Origin: Algoriphagus sp.
Lineage (GTDB): Bacteria; Bacteroidota; Bacteroidia; Cytophagales; Cyclobacteriaceae
Direction of reading: 5' to 3'
Length of the DNA: 64,000 bases
Assembly (NCBI RefSeq): GCF_013373065.1
Contig: NZ_JABXIN010000003.1
Location: forward strand, 62,001-126,000
The position numbers and the translations under genes are program-made. The first letter of the stretch is position 1. Each line of letters starts with the position of its first letter. Shown here one piece after another: positions 37,856 through 43,453 of this stretch. Under the pieces are notes generated by a model. That model was not told where the DNA came from. It searched no databases and worked only from the letters and a program-made list of their open reading frames with translations.

Positions 37856-38569
37856 ATGAAAGAAGAATATTTTAAATGGTACTCCCCCCATCTTCAAAGG
37901 GAAGTGCAGATGTTAGTTTTTGGGCATGCGGGGTATCCCGTAGTAGTCTTTCCAACTTCCAAAGGATCATTTCACGAAAACAAGGATATGGGGCTAATTG
38001 GCTCTGCTCAATGGTTTATTGAACAGGGATTGATCCAAATTTATTGCCCGGAAAGTAACGACGCTCAAAGTTTTTACAATAAAAATGTCCACCCTCATCA
38101 ACGGATCCAAAATCATGTAGCGTATGACAAAATGATTTGCCATGAACTGGTGGAGCGGATCCGACTTAACACCGGTACAGCAAAAGTGGTGGTGGCAGGT
38201 TGCAGCTTTGGAGGGTATCATGCCGCTAATTTTGCCTTCCGGCATCCAGGCTATGTGAGCCATATGTTTAGTATGTCCGGTGCCTTCCATATCCGTAATT
38301 TCATGGATGGCTACAATCATGACGATATTTACTACAACAGTCCGCTAGAATACCTGCCTGGATTGAATGATCATGAGCTTTGGAATATGGATATCGTATT
38401 GGGAACTTCCAATTGGGATATTTGCTTTGATGCCAATTTAAAGTTGGCAGATGTACTTAATAAGAAGCAAGTTCCACACTGGCTGGATATCCGCCAAGAC
38501 AGAGTTCATGATTGGGACGTTTGGAAAGAAATGTTTCCACATTATTTGAGTAGAATTAAGTTTGATTAG
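37856..38569 (+). CDS. Esterase (COG4947-type alpha/beta hydrolase)
   Basis: This 237-residue cytoplasmic protein is a single alpha/beta-hydrolase domain. The nucleophile elbow is GCSFGGYHA with Ser117; the probable catalytic Asp and His are in NWDICF (Asp188) and RVHDWDVW (His219). No signal peptide is seen. It is related to the esterase D/COG4947 group. Being the first gene of a five-gene cluster (20-base gap to the next), it may hydrolyse or acylate a product or precursor of the amidoligase pathway. A promoter was not identified with confidence. Confidence 0.88.
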   Translation: MKEEYFKWYSPHLQREVQMLVFGHAGYPVVVFPTSKGSFHENKDMGLIGSAQWFIEQGLIQIYCPESNDAQSFYNKNVHPHQRIQNHVAYDKMICHELVERIRLNTGTAKVVVAGCSFGGYHAANFAFRHPGYVSHMFSMSGAFHIRNFMDGYNHDDIYYNSPLEYLPGLNDHELWNMDIVLGTSNWDICFDANLKLADVLNKKQVPHWLDIRQDRVHDWDVWKEMFPHYLSRIKFD

Positions 38570-38589
38570 AAATTTTATATCAAGGAATT

Positions 38590-39546
38590 ATGAAAAAGAT
38601 CGGAATACTTTTCGGAATGGAAGACACCTTTCCGCAAGCCTTTATCGACAGGGTAAATCAAAAGGCGGAAAAGGGAATTGTAGCGGAGGCTGTCAAAATT
38701 GATAAAGTGATTCAGAATGAACTGACCGAATATGCAGTAATCATTGACCGGATTTCACAAGATGTTCCATTTTACCGTGCTTATTTGAAAAATGCGGCCT
38801 TGACAGGTACCGCCGTAATCAATAACCCTTTTTGGTGGAGCGCTGATGATAAGTTTTTCAATAATTGCCTAGCTGATCAATTGGGTGTACCTCTTCCAAA
38901 AACAGTGATTCTACCATCAGCGGAGCATCCTACTGATACAACGGCCAAATCATTTCGAAATCTTGTTGCCCCTTTGGATTGGGAAGGGATTTTCAATTAC
39001 ATAGGATTTCCTGCCTACATGAAGCCCTATGCGGGAGGCGGTTGGAAAAATGTCTATCGGCTTGAAAATAAGGAGGAGTTTTTCCAAAAACATCCAGAAA
39101 CAGGTCAATTGGTCATGTTACTTCAGGAAGAAATTGTCTTTGATGAATATTTCAGGGTGTATTGCCTAGGAGGAAAGGCAGTAAGAATCATGGAATACGA
39201 GCCTAGAAACCCTCATCATCTCCGCTATGTGGTCGATCGTGCGCCTGCTTCGAAGAAGCTTTTGGCGAAAGTGAAAGAATATACGCTCACTCTTTGCAAA
39301 GGCTTGGGGTATGATTTCAATACTGTCGAGTTTGCTGTGCGGGATGGGATTCCGTATGCAATTGATTTTGGAAATCCTGCACCAGATGCTGATGTAAATT
39401 CTGTAGGTCAGGAAAATTTTGAATGGGTGGTTGAAGAAGCTGCGAATATGGCCATTCGTTATGCTAAAGCTCAGAAGCCGGGGAAAATGAATTTGACCTG
39501 GGGAACTTTCATGAGAAATGCTGTGGAGGCAACCAAACGTTTTTAG
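38590..39546 (+). CDS. ATP-grasp domain ligase (amidoligase cluster, first ATP-grasp)
   Basis: This 318-residue protein has an ATP-grasp fold. The N-terminal about 110 residues are a pre-ATP-grasp domain; the core includes FPAYMKPYAGGGWKNVYRL, the Lys and Gly-rich ATP-binding loop, and the metal-binding end IDFGNPAPDAD (D-x-x-N type). ATP-grasp enzymes join a carboxylate, activated as acyl phosphate, to an amine or thiol. In the cluster context it likely forms an amide bond in a small peptide-like compound. It is 18 bases before the GCS2 gene. Exact substrates are unknown. Confidence 0.87.
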   Translation: MKKIGILFGMEDTFPQAFIDRVNQKAEKGIVAEAVKIDKVIQNELTEYAVIIDRISQDVPFYRAYLKNAALTGTAVINNPFWWSADDKFFNNCLADQLGVPLPKTVILPSAEHPTDTTAKSFRNLVAPLDWEGIFNYIGFPAYMKPYAGGGWKNVYRLENKEEFFQKHPETGQLVMLLQEEIVFDEYFRVYCLGGKAVRIMEYEPRNPHHLRYVVDRAPASKKLLAKVKEYTLTLCKGLGYDFNTVEFAVRDGIPYAIDFGNPAPDADVNSVGQENFEWVVEEAANMAIRYAKAQKPGKMNLTWGTFMRNAVEATKRF

Positions 39547-39564
39547 AATTAAAACTCACTTTTT

Positions 39565-40683
39565 ATGTGTGCAGTAATCAAGAAATTACCTCAGTTTACA
39601 ATTGGGGTAGAAGAAGAATATCAGATCATTGACCCGACGACAAGGGATCTGCGGTCTCATATGTCCAAAATAGTGGATGGAGGAAAGATTCAGCTACGCG
39701 AACAAGTAAAAGCGGAGATGCATCAATCCGTTGTGGAAGTTGGAACAAATATTTGTCAAAATGTCCAAGAGGCCCGAAAAGAAGTAGCCTTTTTGAGAAA
39801 TAAAATTTCCGAACTCGCTGCTCAACAAGGTTTAATTGTAGGAGCCTCCAGTACCCATCCTTTTTCAAAATGGCAAGACCAAGAGATAACTGATGATCCC
39901 CGATATCATACGATAGTAGACGAGCTAAAGGATATTGCACGATCAAACTTGATTTTTGGTCTTCATGTGCATGTTGGTATCGAAAGTCGGGAAGTGGCTC
40001 TCCAAGTCATGAATCAGGCTTGTTATTTTCTGCCACATATTTATGCCCTGACCACCAATTCCCCTTTTTGGGAAGGAAGAAATACTGGTTTTAAAGCATT
40101 TAGAGCTAAGGTTTTTGCCAAATTTCCGAGGACAGGATTGCCGGAATACTTTGATTCCGTACAGTCTTACGACAATTTTTTGGAAACTTTGGTAAAGACG
40201 AACTGCATAGACAATCCCAAAAAAATCTGGTGGGACCTTCGAATGCATCCCTTCTTTAGTACCATTGAATTCCGAATTTGCGATATGTGCCTGACAGTTG
40301 AGGAAACCACTTGTATTGTGGCGCTAATTCAGGCTGTAGTCGCCAAATTGTACAAATTGATCATGAGCAACATTTCGTACAATGTCTACAGAATTGCGCT
40401 GATTCGGGAAAATAAATTCCGTGCTGCGCGAAACGGTATTGAGGGAAAGTTGATCGATTTTGGCAAGAAACAGGAAGTGCCAACCGTAGATTTAATTATG
40501 GAGCTGTTGGATTTTATCGATGATGTAGTTGATGAACTTGGCAGTAGAGAAGAGGTGAATTATGTTCACCAAATCCTAAAAAATGGAACGGGAGCAGATC
40601 AACAGCTGAAGGTATATGAAGAAACCCAGGATTTGACGAAAGTGGTTGATTTTATCACTGGTAAATTTACCGAAGGGATTTAA
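39565..40683 (+). CDS. Carboxylate-amine ligase, GCS2/YbdK (COG2170) family
   Basis: This 372-residue protein belongs to the glutamate-cysteine ligase 2 family (glutamine-synthetase-like fold). It begins with FTIGVEEEYQIID, containing the acidic metal ligands, and carries FGLHVHVGIES and the RICDMCLTVEE region. E. coli YbdK has weak gamma-glutamyl-cysteine ligase activity in vitro. Here it is placed with two ATP-grasp enzymes and a glutaminase, so it probably makes a gamma-glutamyl or other amide linkage in an unknown metabolite. The reaction is inferred. Confidence 0.92.
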   Translation: MCAVIKKLPQFTIGVEEEYQIIDPTTRDLRSHMSKIVDGGKIQLREQVKAEMHQSVVEVGTNICQNVQEARKEVAFLRNKISELAAQQGLIVGASSTHPFSKWQDQEITDDPRYHTIVDELKDIARSNLIFGLHVHVGIESREVALQVMNQACYFLPHIYALTTNSPFWEGRNTGFKAFRAKVFAKFPRTGLPEYFDSVQSYDNFLETLVKTNCIDNPKKIWWDLRMHPFFSTIEFRICDMCLTVEETTCIVALIQAVVAKLYKLIMSNISYNVYRIALIRENKFRAARNGIEGKLIDFGKKQEVPTVDLIMELLDFIDDVVDELGSREEVNYVHQILKNGTGADQQLKVYEETQDLTKVVDFITGKFTEGI

Positions 40684-40721
40684 GGAATTCCAGTACCTTT
40701 GAGGCCTAAAAAGTAGACGTT

Positions 40722-41555
40722 GTGGGAAAATCAAAAATTCATTTGGCCATTTTGGATATGTATGATGGGGAGCCAAACCAGGGGATGCGATGCATTCAGG
40801 ATATTCTGGGGAGGTTTCACCAAGATATTACATTCAAGATTTTTGATGTGAGAGGAAAGGCTGAGCTTCCAGAGATTACTGATTTTGATCTTTTCATTTC
40901 CACAGGAGGCCCGGGGAATCCATTGGAAGGAAATGGGGATTGGGAAATCAAATACTATGATTTCTTAGATCAAGTTTGGATTTGGAATCAAAATCATACT
41001 GCTAAAAAATACCTGCTCCTGATCTGTCATTCATTCCAAATGGCTTGTAAGCATTTTGGTTTGGGAGAGATCACCAAACGGAAATCTACTTCTTTCGGAG
41101 TAATGACTATTCATAAAACTCAGGAGGGATTGACGGACCCCTTATTCAATAATTTGGAAAATCCTTTTTGGGCTGTGGATAGTAGAGATTATCAAGTTGT
41201 TCAACCTCATAAACGGAAGTTTACTCATTTGGGAGCGAAAATTATAGCTCTTGAAAAAATCCGGAATCACGTGGAATATGAGCGTGCAATAATGGGGATT
41301 CGATTTACAGATGAAATCGTAGGAACTCAATTTCACCCGGAAGCCGATCCTGTTTCTTTCTTGGAGCATTTGAAAAAACCAGAAGTCCGAGAAAAAATTA
41401 TTGATTTGAAAGGAAAGGCCAAATTCCGAGACATGATCGAGCACTTGGTGGATGAAGATAAGATTTACCGTACCAATGAGGAGTTAATTCCAAATTTTTT
41501 GAGGCAAAGTGTCCATCAAATACGAAATCAAAAAAAATCGAAAGCCTTGATTTAA
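40722..41555 (+). CDS. Class I glutamine amidotransferase-like protein
   Basis: This 277-residue protein has a class I glutaminase domain over about 200 residues: the oxyanion region STGGPGNP, the nucleophile Cys in LLICHSFQMA (GxCxGxQ in classic members), and the His-Glu pair in TQFHPEAD. It starts with GTG at 40722. A C-terminal helical extension of about 50 residues (DMIEHLVDEDK to the end) is unlike typical members. It probably supplies ammonia to one of the ligases, or hydrolyses a gamma-glutamyl bond. It lies 38 bases after the GCS2 gene and 5 bases before the last gene. Confidence 0.9.
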   Translation: MGKSKIHLAILDMYDGEPNQGMRCIQDILGRFHQDITFKIFDVRGKAELPEITDFDLFISTGGPGNPLEGNGDWEIKYYDFLDQVWIWNQNHTAKKYLLLICHSFQMACKHFGLGEITKRKSTSFGVMTIHKTQEGLTDPLFNNLENPFWAVDSRDYQVVQPHKRKFTHLGAKIIALEKIRNHVEYERAIMGIRFTDEIVGTQFHPEADPVSFLEHLKKPEVREKIIDLKGKAKFRDMIEHLVDEDKIYRTNEELIPNFLRQSVHQIRNQKKSKALI

Positions 41556-41560
41556 CCCAT

Positions 41561-42751
41561 ATGATCTCATCAAGTCGTCAGCAATTTAATGCTGCTTTTT
41601 CGCAAGAAAAGTACCAGGAGCTTCTGAAAAGTATACAAAAAGATTTCGATTTTCTTCCAGCATTTAGAGTTGCAGAGACTCCCTTTTTTATTTCAGAAAA
41701 ACTGAAAGAGCAACTTCTGGAAGCATGCCAGGAACTTATTTCTTTTCTTAAACGATCCGATTTTAAAAAATTAACTCAACAGGCATTGGACCTAAATACC
41801 GAGGTTCCCAATGAAGATGCTCATACCCAATTTTTGGCAATTGACTTTGGGATTTGCGAGGAAAACGGGGAGATTTTACCCAAACTAATTGAAGTTCAAG
41901 GTTTTCCTACCGTTTTTAATTTTCAGTATAATCTATTCCAAAAACTCCGATCCGTTTATCCTTTTCTACAAAATTACACTCCCTACCTAAGTGGGTTGAA
42001 TGAGACAACTTATCTGGATCTACTTCGAAAAACCATCTTGGGAAAATTTGATCCAAAAGAAGTGGTGTTGTTGGAAATTGAACCGGAAAATCAAAATACC
42101 AAGATTGACTTCTATTATTGTCGAAGAGATTTGGGTATTCCTGTTTGTTGCGTGACAGAAATAGAGAAAGAGGGTAGAAAATTGTATTACAAGGATGCGG
42201 AAGGAAATAAAATCCAGATTAAACGAATTTATAATCGGGTCATTTTTGATGAATTAAATTCTCGTCTAGACCTGAAAATGAATTTTAGTTTTTTGGATGA
42301 TTTGGACGTCGAATGGGCCGGACACCCAAATTGGTACACTCGGATTTCGAAGTTTATTTTGCCACACTTGGAGGGGCCTTATTTCATTGACAGTACACTC
42401 ATGAGTGAACTGAAAGAAATCCCTGAAGATTTGGATAATTATGTGCTGAAATCCCTTTTTTCATTTTCGGGTACAGGAGTGATTTTTCATGTTAAACCTT
42501 CAGATATCACCAATTTAAAATATCCGGATCAGTTTATGTTTCAGAAAAAAGTGACCTATTCACCGGTCATTCAAGCTCCAAACGGTAATGTGAAGGTGGA
42601 AATCCGGATTTTGGCGATATGGCCTGAAGAAGATGAATCTCCTACTTTGGTTGGGAATTTGGCTAGATTGAGTCGTGGTGAAATGATTGGAGTGAAGTAT
42701 AATAAAGACAAAGATTGGGTGGGAGCCTCTATTGGTTTGTTTCAAAAATAA
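41561..42751 (+). CDS. ATP-grasp-like protein (second ligase of the amidoligase cluster)
   Basis: This 396-residue protein resembles glutathionylspermidine-synthase-like or circularly arranged ATP-grasp proteins rather than the first ligase. The C-terminal half has YVLKSLFSFSGTGVIF (Lys and Gly-rich loop), VKVEIRILAIWP and LARLSRGEMIGVKYNKDKDWVGAS, typical of ATP-grasp cores. The N-terminal half (LAIDFGICEENGEILPKLIEVQGFPT) contains an acidic E-x-Q type motif. It is the last gene of the cluster, ends before a bidirectional terminator, and starts 5 bases after the amidotransferase gene. Assignment is by motif only. Confidence 0.75.
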   Translation: MISSSRQQFNAAFSQEKYQELLKSIQKDFDFLPAFRVAETPFFISEKLKEQLLEACQELISFLKRSDFKKLTQQALDLNTEVPNEDAHTQFLAIDFGICEENGEILPKLIEVQGFPTVFNFQYNLFQKLRSVYPFLQNYTPYLSGLNETTYLDLLRKTILGKFDPKEVVLLEIEPENQNTKIDFYYCRRDLGIPVCCVTEIEKEGRKLYYKDAEGNKIQIKRIYNRVIFDELNSRLDLKMNFSFLDDLDVEWAGHPNWYTRISKFILPHLEGPYFIDSTLMSELKEIPEDLDNYVLKSLFSFSGTGVIFHVKPSDITNLKYPDQFMFQKKVTYSPVIQAPNGNVKVEIRILAIWPEEDESPTLVGNLARLSRGEMIGVKYNKDKDWVGASIGLFQK

Positions 42752-42780: not shown

Positions 42781-42803
42781 AAAAGCCGATTAATTCGGCT
42801 TTT
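42781..42803. terminator. Bidirectional terminator between the ligase cluster and pyrE
   Basis: A 9-base stem (AAAAGCCGA / TCGGCTTTT) with a 5-base loop has T runs on both strands: TTTTGTTTTTT on the plus strand and TTTTTTTAT on the minus strand. It serves the cluster and pyrE, whose stops are about 30 and 6 bases away. Confidence 0.9.
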
Positions 42804-42808
42804 GTTTT

Positions 42809-43453
42809 TTAAGGAGTCCATTGAGATGGGTTTTCTCTCCAGACTTTAAGGGACTTTAGTGCTTCGTCATCGATATATTTTTTCTGAACAGCTCGGGGAA
42901 GTAAGGCCTCGTAATGAGAAAGAACAGCCAATCGAACCCCAGCCTTTTCGAAATTCTCAGAAGCAACCGGGAATCCGTAGCTAAAAATGGCTACCATTCC
43001 CAATACTTCGAATCCAGCCTTCCGAAGATCCTCTACTGCTTTTAACGAACTTCCGCCAGTGGAAACCAAGTCCTCAACTACCACCACTTTTTGTCCTTTC
43101 ACTACTTTCCCTTCGATCATATTCTCCATACCATGTCCTTTTGGTTTGGAGCGCACATAAAGAAAAGGTAACTCTAATTCATTTGCCAATAGGGCTCCTT
43201 GGGGGATTCCTGCGGTCGCTACACCTGCAATTGACTCGACTTCAGGAAAGCAATGTTGAATTGCTCGGGTGAGTGAGTCGCGGATTAGATTTCTAACTTT
43301 CGGGAAAGAAAGAGATAATCGATTATCGCAATAAATGGGGGATTTCCATCCGGAAGCCCATGTAAAAGGTTGCTTGGGTTGAAGTTTGATGGCTTCGATC
43401 TGCAGTAATTGATCGGCGACTTCTGCGGCTATTTCTTGGGATATGATTTCCAT
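42809..43453 (-). CDS. pyrE: Orotate phosphoribosyltransferase
   Basis: This 214-residue enzyme makes orotidine 5'-monophosphate from orotate and PRPP in pyrimidine synthesis. Visible motifs are the KSPIYCDNR orotate-binding region and the PRPP loop VVVVEDLVSTGGSS. It runs divergently from the Nudix gene at 43558; such pyrE/Nudix/coaD gene neighbourhoods are common in Bacteroidota. Confidence 0.97.
   Translation of the reverse strand: MEIISQEIAAEVADQLLQIEAIKLQPKQPFTWASGWKSPIYCDNRLSLSFPKVRNLIRDSLTRAIQHCFPEVESIAGVATAGIPQGALLANELELPFLYVRSKPKGHGMENMIEGKVVKGQKVVVVEDLVSTGGSSLKAVEDLRKAGFEVLGMVAIFSYGFPVASENFEKAGVRLAVLSHYEALLPRAVQKKYIDDEALKSLKVWRENPSQWTP

Follow-up and report, generated by a model that had tools for sequence, protein, structure and literature searches.

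The closest described counterparts of the locus presented here are the pathways for glutathione (glutamate-cysteine ligase with a eukaryotic-type glutathione synthetase) and glutathionylspermidine (glutathionylspermidine synthetase; Gsp, GspS), together with the peptide-spermidine ligases YgiC and YjfC. The GCS2 enzymes are known to act on free amino acids; among the YbdK-type ligases (COG2170), YbdK of Escherichia coli stands, to our knowledge, without partners equivalent to genes B and E described below. YbdK-like, GspS/YgiC-like and RimK-like ligases are already known kinds, and amidoligase neighbourhoods have been predicted earlier: Iyer et al. in 2009 (Mol Biosyst 5:1636) reportedly described gene neighbourhoods in which ligases of ATP-grasp and GCS-like type lie beside peptidases or hydrolases, and predicted that they synthesize peptides. 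That study is cited in PMC4431377 and PMC8939145. PMC6282198 gives the distribution of gshA-B as cyanobacteria, proteobacteria, eukarya and one actinobacterium. The fungal E-64 pathway, with its Cp1B ligase, differs from the present locus in that its partners are an oxygenase, a decarboxylase and an ANL-family enzyme.

The window, that is, the whole 64,000-nucleotide stretch of Algoriphagus sp. DNA that was analysed, carries five open reading frames on the plus strand, separated by 20, 18, 38 and 5 bases as originally predicted. They encode an alpha/beta hydrolase of 237 aa (A, 37856..38569), an ATP-grasp ligase of 318 aa (B, 38590..39546), a GCS2/YbdK-type carboxylate-amine ligase of 372 aa (C, 39565..40683), a class I glutamine-amidotransferase (GATase)-fold protein of 277 aa with a GTG start (D, 40722..41555) and a ligase of 396 aa (E, 41561..42751). 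The broad classes proposed for these genes were borne out by Pfam and NCBIfam matches for A, C and D and by predicted fold for E. As in glutathione and glutathionylspermidine synthesis, a probable gamma-glutamate ligase (C) is paired with a ligase of glutathione synthetase/GspS/YgiC fold (E); what sets the locus apart is that it also holds an esterase, a GATase-fold protein of class I and, in B, a further ligase. With about even confidence, we read A to E as a single NRPS-independent route to a small (pseudo)peptide resembling glutathione or glutathionylspermidine; amino acids would probably be joined non-ribosomally into a small glutathione-like compound. This reading draws on gene order in near relatives, co-occurrence, families or predicted folds and conserved residues, from which we infer substrates, step order and product.

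Scans with Pfam (E up to 0.001) and NCBIfam, covering A to E and five flanking genes, agreed with the original prediction in finding no NRPS, transporter or regulator among the five: these encode a YceI-like protein, a pyrE-like phosphoribosyltransferase, a NUDIX protein, one 169-aa protein that matches no family, and a hexapeptide protein similar to gamma carbonic anhydrase, though below the cut-off of that model. ARAGORN and Rfam (at gathering scores) gave no match within the window, and the gaps of 5-38 bases between A and E are too small to house a graspetide RiPP precursor gene. Downstream of E, on the plus strand, a hairpin of 9 pairs followed by a T run (42781..42803) resembles an intrinsic terminator by consensus match only; such sites number 11 in the region against 6.4 +/- 3.2 in shuffles, mildly above chance. 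Being near-symmetric, the hairpin may act for the convergent gene at 42809-43453 as well.

The five genes are kept together in near relatives. Among the best 80 of 420 relatives of C confirmed in one-genome-per-species data, A-E order and strand are the same at 78 loci; the two exceptions sit at contig ends, L014 beginning within B and L078 stopping before E is complete. Median gaps from A to E are 27, 17, 45 and 6 bases (76-79 loci, with start codons chosen by script), and the nearest named relatives are Algoriphagus L001 and L002, whose C proteins are 99 and 98% identical. At 22 loci, some of them short and mostly from Flavobacterium with some from Belliella and other genera, A to E are matched yet none of nine other window genes searched, which argues that the conserved unit is A-E itself and not a longer syntenic block. 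This conservation of order is beyond chance. The unit holds, as the original prediction had it, three probable amide-forming ligases with their conserved residues intact.

By curated cut-offs and residues, gene C is a clear member of the GCS2/YbdK group, passing PF04107 (189.4 against a cut-off of 21), NF010039 (523.5 against 371) and TIGR02050 (288.3 against 176.4) and aligning with YbdK (1r8g) across residues 10-347; it is also a distant relative of plant GCL. E16, E18, H134, H136, R226 and R237 are invariant in 125 sequences, and these conserved acidic, His and Arg residues, shared with YbdK-type ligases, presumably form the active site. (The conservation counts given for A, C and D refer to sequences past a length filter, with survey loci also filtered by score.) Gene C probably encodes a ligase that forms gamma-glutamyl bonds, and in the proposed route it would use ATP to join the gamma-carboxyl of glutamate to an amine or amino acid as a gamma-glutamyl amide.

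Gene E is, by its predicted model, an ATP-grasp protein of the glutathione synthetase/glutathionylspermidine synthetase/YgiC fold. Neither Pfam (E up to 0.001) nor NCBIfam assigns it a family; the window protein has no match to GSP_synth (PF03738), a model weakly matched by 41 of 60 members of the E alignment (best E 0.0061), and profile comparison with YgiC, YjfC and Gsp is weak (28.5%, 88 columns). Compared with Gsp, YgiC and YjfC, E therefore stands apart in lacking a family-level sequence match and, when aligned by hand, the Arg that all three share (YgiC R100), which is Ala93 here. In the same alignment Asp95 and Glu111 are retained and the Asn becomes Gln113; we take the aligned Arg, Asp, Glu and Asn of this fold group to be the Mg/acyl-phosphate site. 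Owing to the two replacements, the chemistry of E may differ. In the proposed route, E would activate a carboxylate of C's product and attach an amino acid or amine, as glutathione synthetase and GspS do. The fold cannot by itself tell the substrate, since YgiC is without Gsp activity according to PMC12506659.

The third ligase, B, has no Pfam match at E up to 0.001. Membership of the RimK family is not supported by its TIGR00768 (rimK_fam) score, 29.2 against a curated cut-off of 143.4. Ranked by Z, the solved structures closest to its predicted model, which is of low confidence, are RimK and LysX/ArgX; B would form a third bond. Gene A matches PF00756 (Esterase) at 29.4 bits against a cut-off of 22, has no NCBIfam match and carries a GCSFGG nucleophile motif. 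Its triad is probably Ser117/Asp/His218: in 114 full-length sequences D188 is invariant, and S117, D211 and H218 each show conservation of 97% or more. A would cleave an ester or thioester during trimming, release or turnover.

The original prediction named D a glutaminase and took it for an ammonia donor or a gamma-glutamyl hydrolase. As a true glutaminase it would feed ammonia to a ligase and yield a primary amide, an outcome we regard as unlikely. D matches PF00117 (35.9 against a cut-off of 22.8), its Cys-His-Glu triad (C102, H205, E207) is invariant in 115 sequences, and its gene sits between those of C and E, ending 5 bases before the latter, all of which would suit ammonia supply. Yet some class I GATase-fold proteins that stand alone are gamma-glutamyl hydrolases, for example PuuD and GGP1, and Pfam finds no synthase domain fused to the window protein. 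Amidotransferase chemistry is moreover not assured, as the D profile weakly matches homoserine O-succinyltransferase (2vdj, E 0.0029), and D is absent from 25 of the 83 Bacteroidota genomes carrying B considered below. In the preferred reading, D would be a cysteine hydrolase acting on a gamma-glutamyl bond, with supply of ammonia from glutamine the less likely role.

The wider distribution was surveyed in 247 Bacteroidota genomes, each at least 90% complete, at E thresholds of 1e-20 for A, C and D, 1e-3 for B and 1e-10 for E. Matches were found in 98 (A), 87 (B), 79 (C), 59 (D) and 73 (E) genomes. Setting aside a marginal B in G251 (E 9e-4), all five genes occur in 41 genomes, all but D in 23, A alone in 15, A, B and D in 8, C alone in 6, A to D without E in 5, all but C in 4, other combinations in eight and none in 137. 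Many of the unlinked A matches, at about 27-35% identity, may be paralogues. B and E occur together in 70 genomes, under 20 family labels; B only is found in 16, E only in three (G180, G190, G255) and neither in 158 (Fisher p 9e-42, ignoring kinship). Neither B nor E was found in the plasmid collection.

These genes are often not linked. Around B, 84 loci were fetched, 19 with the complete A-E order and 23 with B lacking the other four; 30 genomes with no C at the B locus were searched, and 20 of them encode it elsewhere, and D or E frequently lies on a different contig from B. Homologues scattered without shared order, the outcome that would have spoken against the original prediction, are thus absent among near relatives and common among distant ones, where the genes still co-occur. 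Scatter with co-occurrence leaves the pathway standing and weakens solely the word cluster; unlinked co-occurrence is better evidence of a single pathway than linkage alone. Some lineages have extra neighbours, namely a second PF00756 esterase (c5, 25 placings), an ATP-grasp_4 protein (c8, 8 placings), an M17 aminopeptidase (c35, 4 placings), an M29-type peptidase (c97, in L143 and L174) and isoaspartyl-peptidase-like genes, which fit the making and breaking of peptides. In 53 stretches near unlinked C, D and E, recurring neighbours looked restricted to close lineages.

Across genomes, a close C is tied to E. All 68 close C matches (at least 52% identity) fall in genomes with E, although this 68/68 figure rests on an identity split chosen after seeing the data, whereas the other 11 of the 79, at 33-48% identity, all fall in genomes without E and are probably paralogues. 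Five genomes with E have no C match. A close C accompanying E is a difference from YbdK of E. coli as we know it. The relation of C to D is of another kind. It was counted in 83 genomes with B, the 87 minus G251, G044, G123 and G196 (the latter three at 34, 35 and 46% identity). C is absent from 13 of these (18 if only close C is counted). Both C and D are present in 46, C only in 24, D only in 12 and neither in 1 (p 0.10, ignoring kinship); with close C the counts are 41, 24, 17 and 1, and the two genes are negatively associated (p 0.009, also ignoring kinship). One or both of C and D are thus present in 82/83. A strict cycle in which C adds and D removes gamma-glutamate is disfavoured, as C and D do not pair.

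Exactly the 13 genomes that have B at 50% identity or more and no E carry another protein, c6, which sits between B and D in 13/13, without a close C. The core of B plus either E or c6 is thereby present in 83/83 B genomes, and B is the best marker gene of the proposed pathway. Elsewhere among the 247 genomes c6 occurs only in G173 (37% identity). The c6 protein of L188 passes the cut-off of PF14403, a circularly permuted ATP-grasp type 2 family. Homology of c6 to E was rejected, profile comparison giving a probability of 0.4% and no detectable sequence relation. Some E members weakly match permuted ATP-grasp families, and taken with the PF14403 match this suggests that the swap may involve distant relatives or analogues. 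From its gene position, c6 may stand in for E in some genomes.

Modification of a protein or peptide, with B and E attaching amino acids or polyamines and C, D and A acting as editors, is quite improbable in our estimate. Among the closest folds of B, one RimK entry is complexed with RpsF and one LysX/ArgX entry with LysW. GCS2 enzymes, on the other hand, are known for free amino acids, as noted above, and no recurring target-like gene was seen in the gene strings flanking B, C, D and E, a search confined to the survey genomes and to ORFs of at least 60-70 aa. PMC12568646, which gives peptides as substrates of YgiC and YjfC, counts in favour of modification. A part in cyanophycin or storage-polymer metabolism is very improbable, for the link comes from three genomes of one flavobacterial genus (L159, L161, L163), where glgA/glgB-like genes are found on one side of the set and a cyanophycin synthetase (CphA) gene on the other, and the survey shows none for B, C and E: B occurs in 13/27 genomes with CphA over its cut-off against 73/220 without (p 0.14), C and E give p 0.08 each among the 247, and at E 1e-60 CphA is missing from the genome to which the window belongs. 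A Peptidase_S51 (cyanophycinase-like) gene is next in L159 and L163, with an isoaspartyl-peptidase-like gene in L159, and L152 has genes of both kinds. CphA genomes are somewhat enriched in D (p 0.0035) and A (p 0.04); all these p values ignore kinship, and the last two also ignore multiple tests.

Within the preferred reading of a small peptide-like product, classical glutathione is disfavoured as the exact compound and its logic kept. The host genome encodes BshC (413.6 against 265.8 bits), a further difference from glutathione systems; another thiol is thus available, and the product is unlikely to be just the general thiol of the cell. PMC6282198 also places gshA-B in other groups.

The five-gene set is undescribed in the literature searched, which lay outside most subscription journals. 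As far as could be checked, the fold of E, the C-E tie and the exchange of E for c6 are new. More tentatively, about one third of the sampled Bacteroidota (83/247) may carry an unrecognised glutathione-like pathway, mostly consisting of C, E, a third ligase and dedicated hydrolases and leading to a new gamma-glutamyl, cofactor-like (pseudo)peptide, with c6 doing the job of E in some lineages. If this is true, many Bacteroidota, among them Algoriphagus, Belliella and Flavobacterium, would produce a conserved low-molecular-weight peptide-like compound, for which the constant core of B with E or c6 makes a metabolomics search possible. The pathway would, in addition, offer a setting in which to understand the uses of YbdK-type and YgiC-type ligases.

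In three loci of a flavobacterial genus, g20 (the fetched related loci L159, L161 and L163), the five-gene set A-E lies with glgA/glgB-like genes on one side and a cyanophycin synthetase gene on the other. The synthetase gene is then followed by a Peptidase_S51 (cyanophycinase-like) gene in L159 and L163, and in L159 an isoaspartyl-peptidase-like gene follows as well. In front, these g20 loci carry three further genes, whose products are an M17 peptidase, an additional esterase and a protein of the ATP-grasp_4 family. Across the Bacteroidota genome survey, cyanophycin synthetase showed no general association with B, C or E.

Genomes of the c6 type, in which a permuted ATP-grasp gene lies between B and D and E is missing, contain probable GCS2 paralogues with 46-48% identity to C (L250-L254). 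These have recurring neighbours of their own, gene clusters k34, k55 and k56, together with which they perhaps constitute a separate amidoligase pathway. In one survey genome (G190, contig C60), C, D and E were matched and A and B were not found; a stop was flagged within the C match. The set may be decaying here, or it may be cut by the end of the contig or affected by an error in the assembly.

The place that D occupies in the window, between C and E, is taken by an M29-type metallopeptidase gene in two loci (L143:10096-11124 and L174:5848-6867), a type assigned by a scan of the L143 copy. In family f28, at loci where D stands alone, a recurring gene of about 500 amino acids, k14, is found no more than a few genes away in five cases (L257-L260 and L262).

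Among the 83 survey genomes with B, all but one (82/83) have C, D or both. Within these 83, the presence of a close C (at least 52% identity) is negatively associated with that of D (p 0.009, uncorrected), as if C and D were able to partly replace each other.
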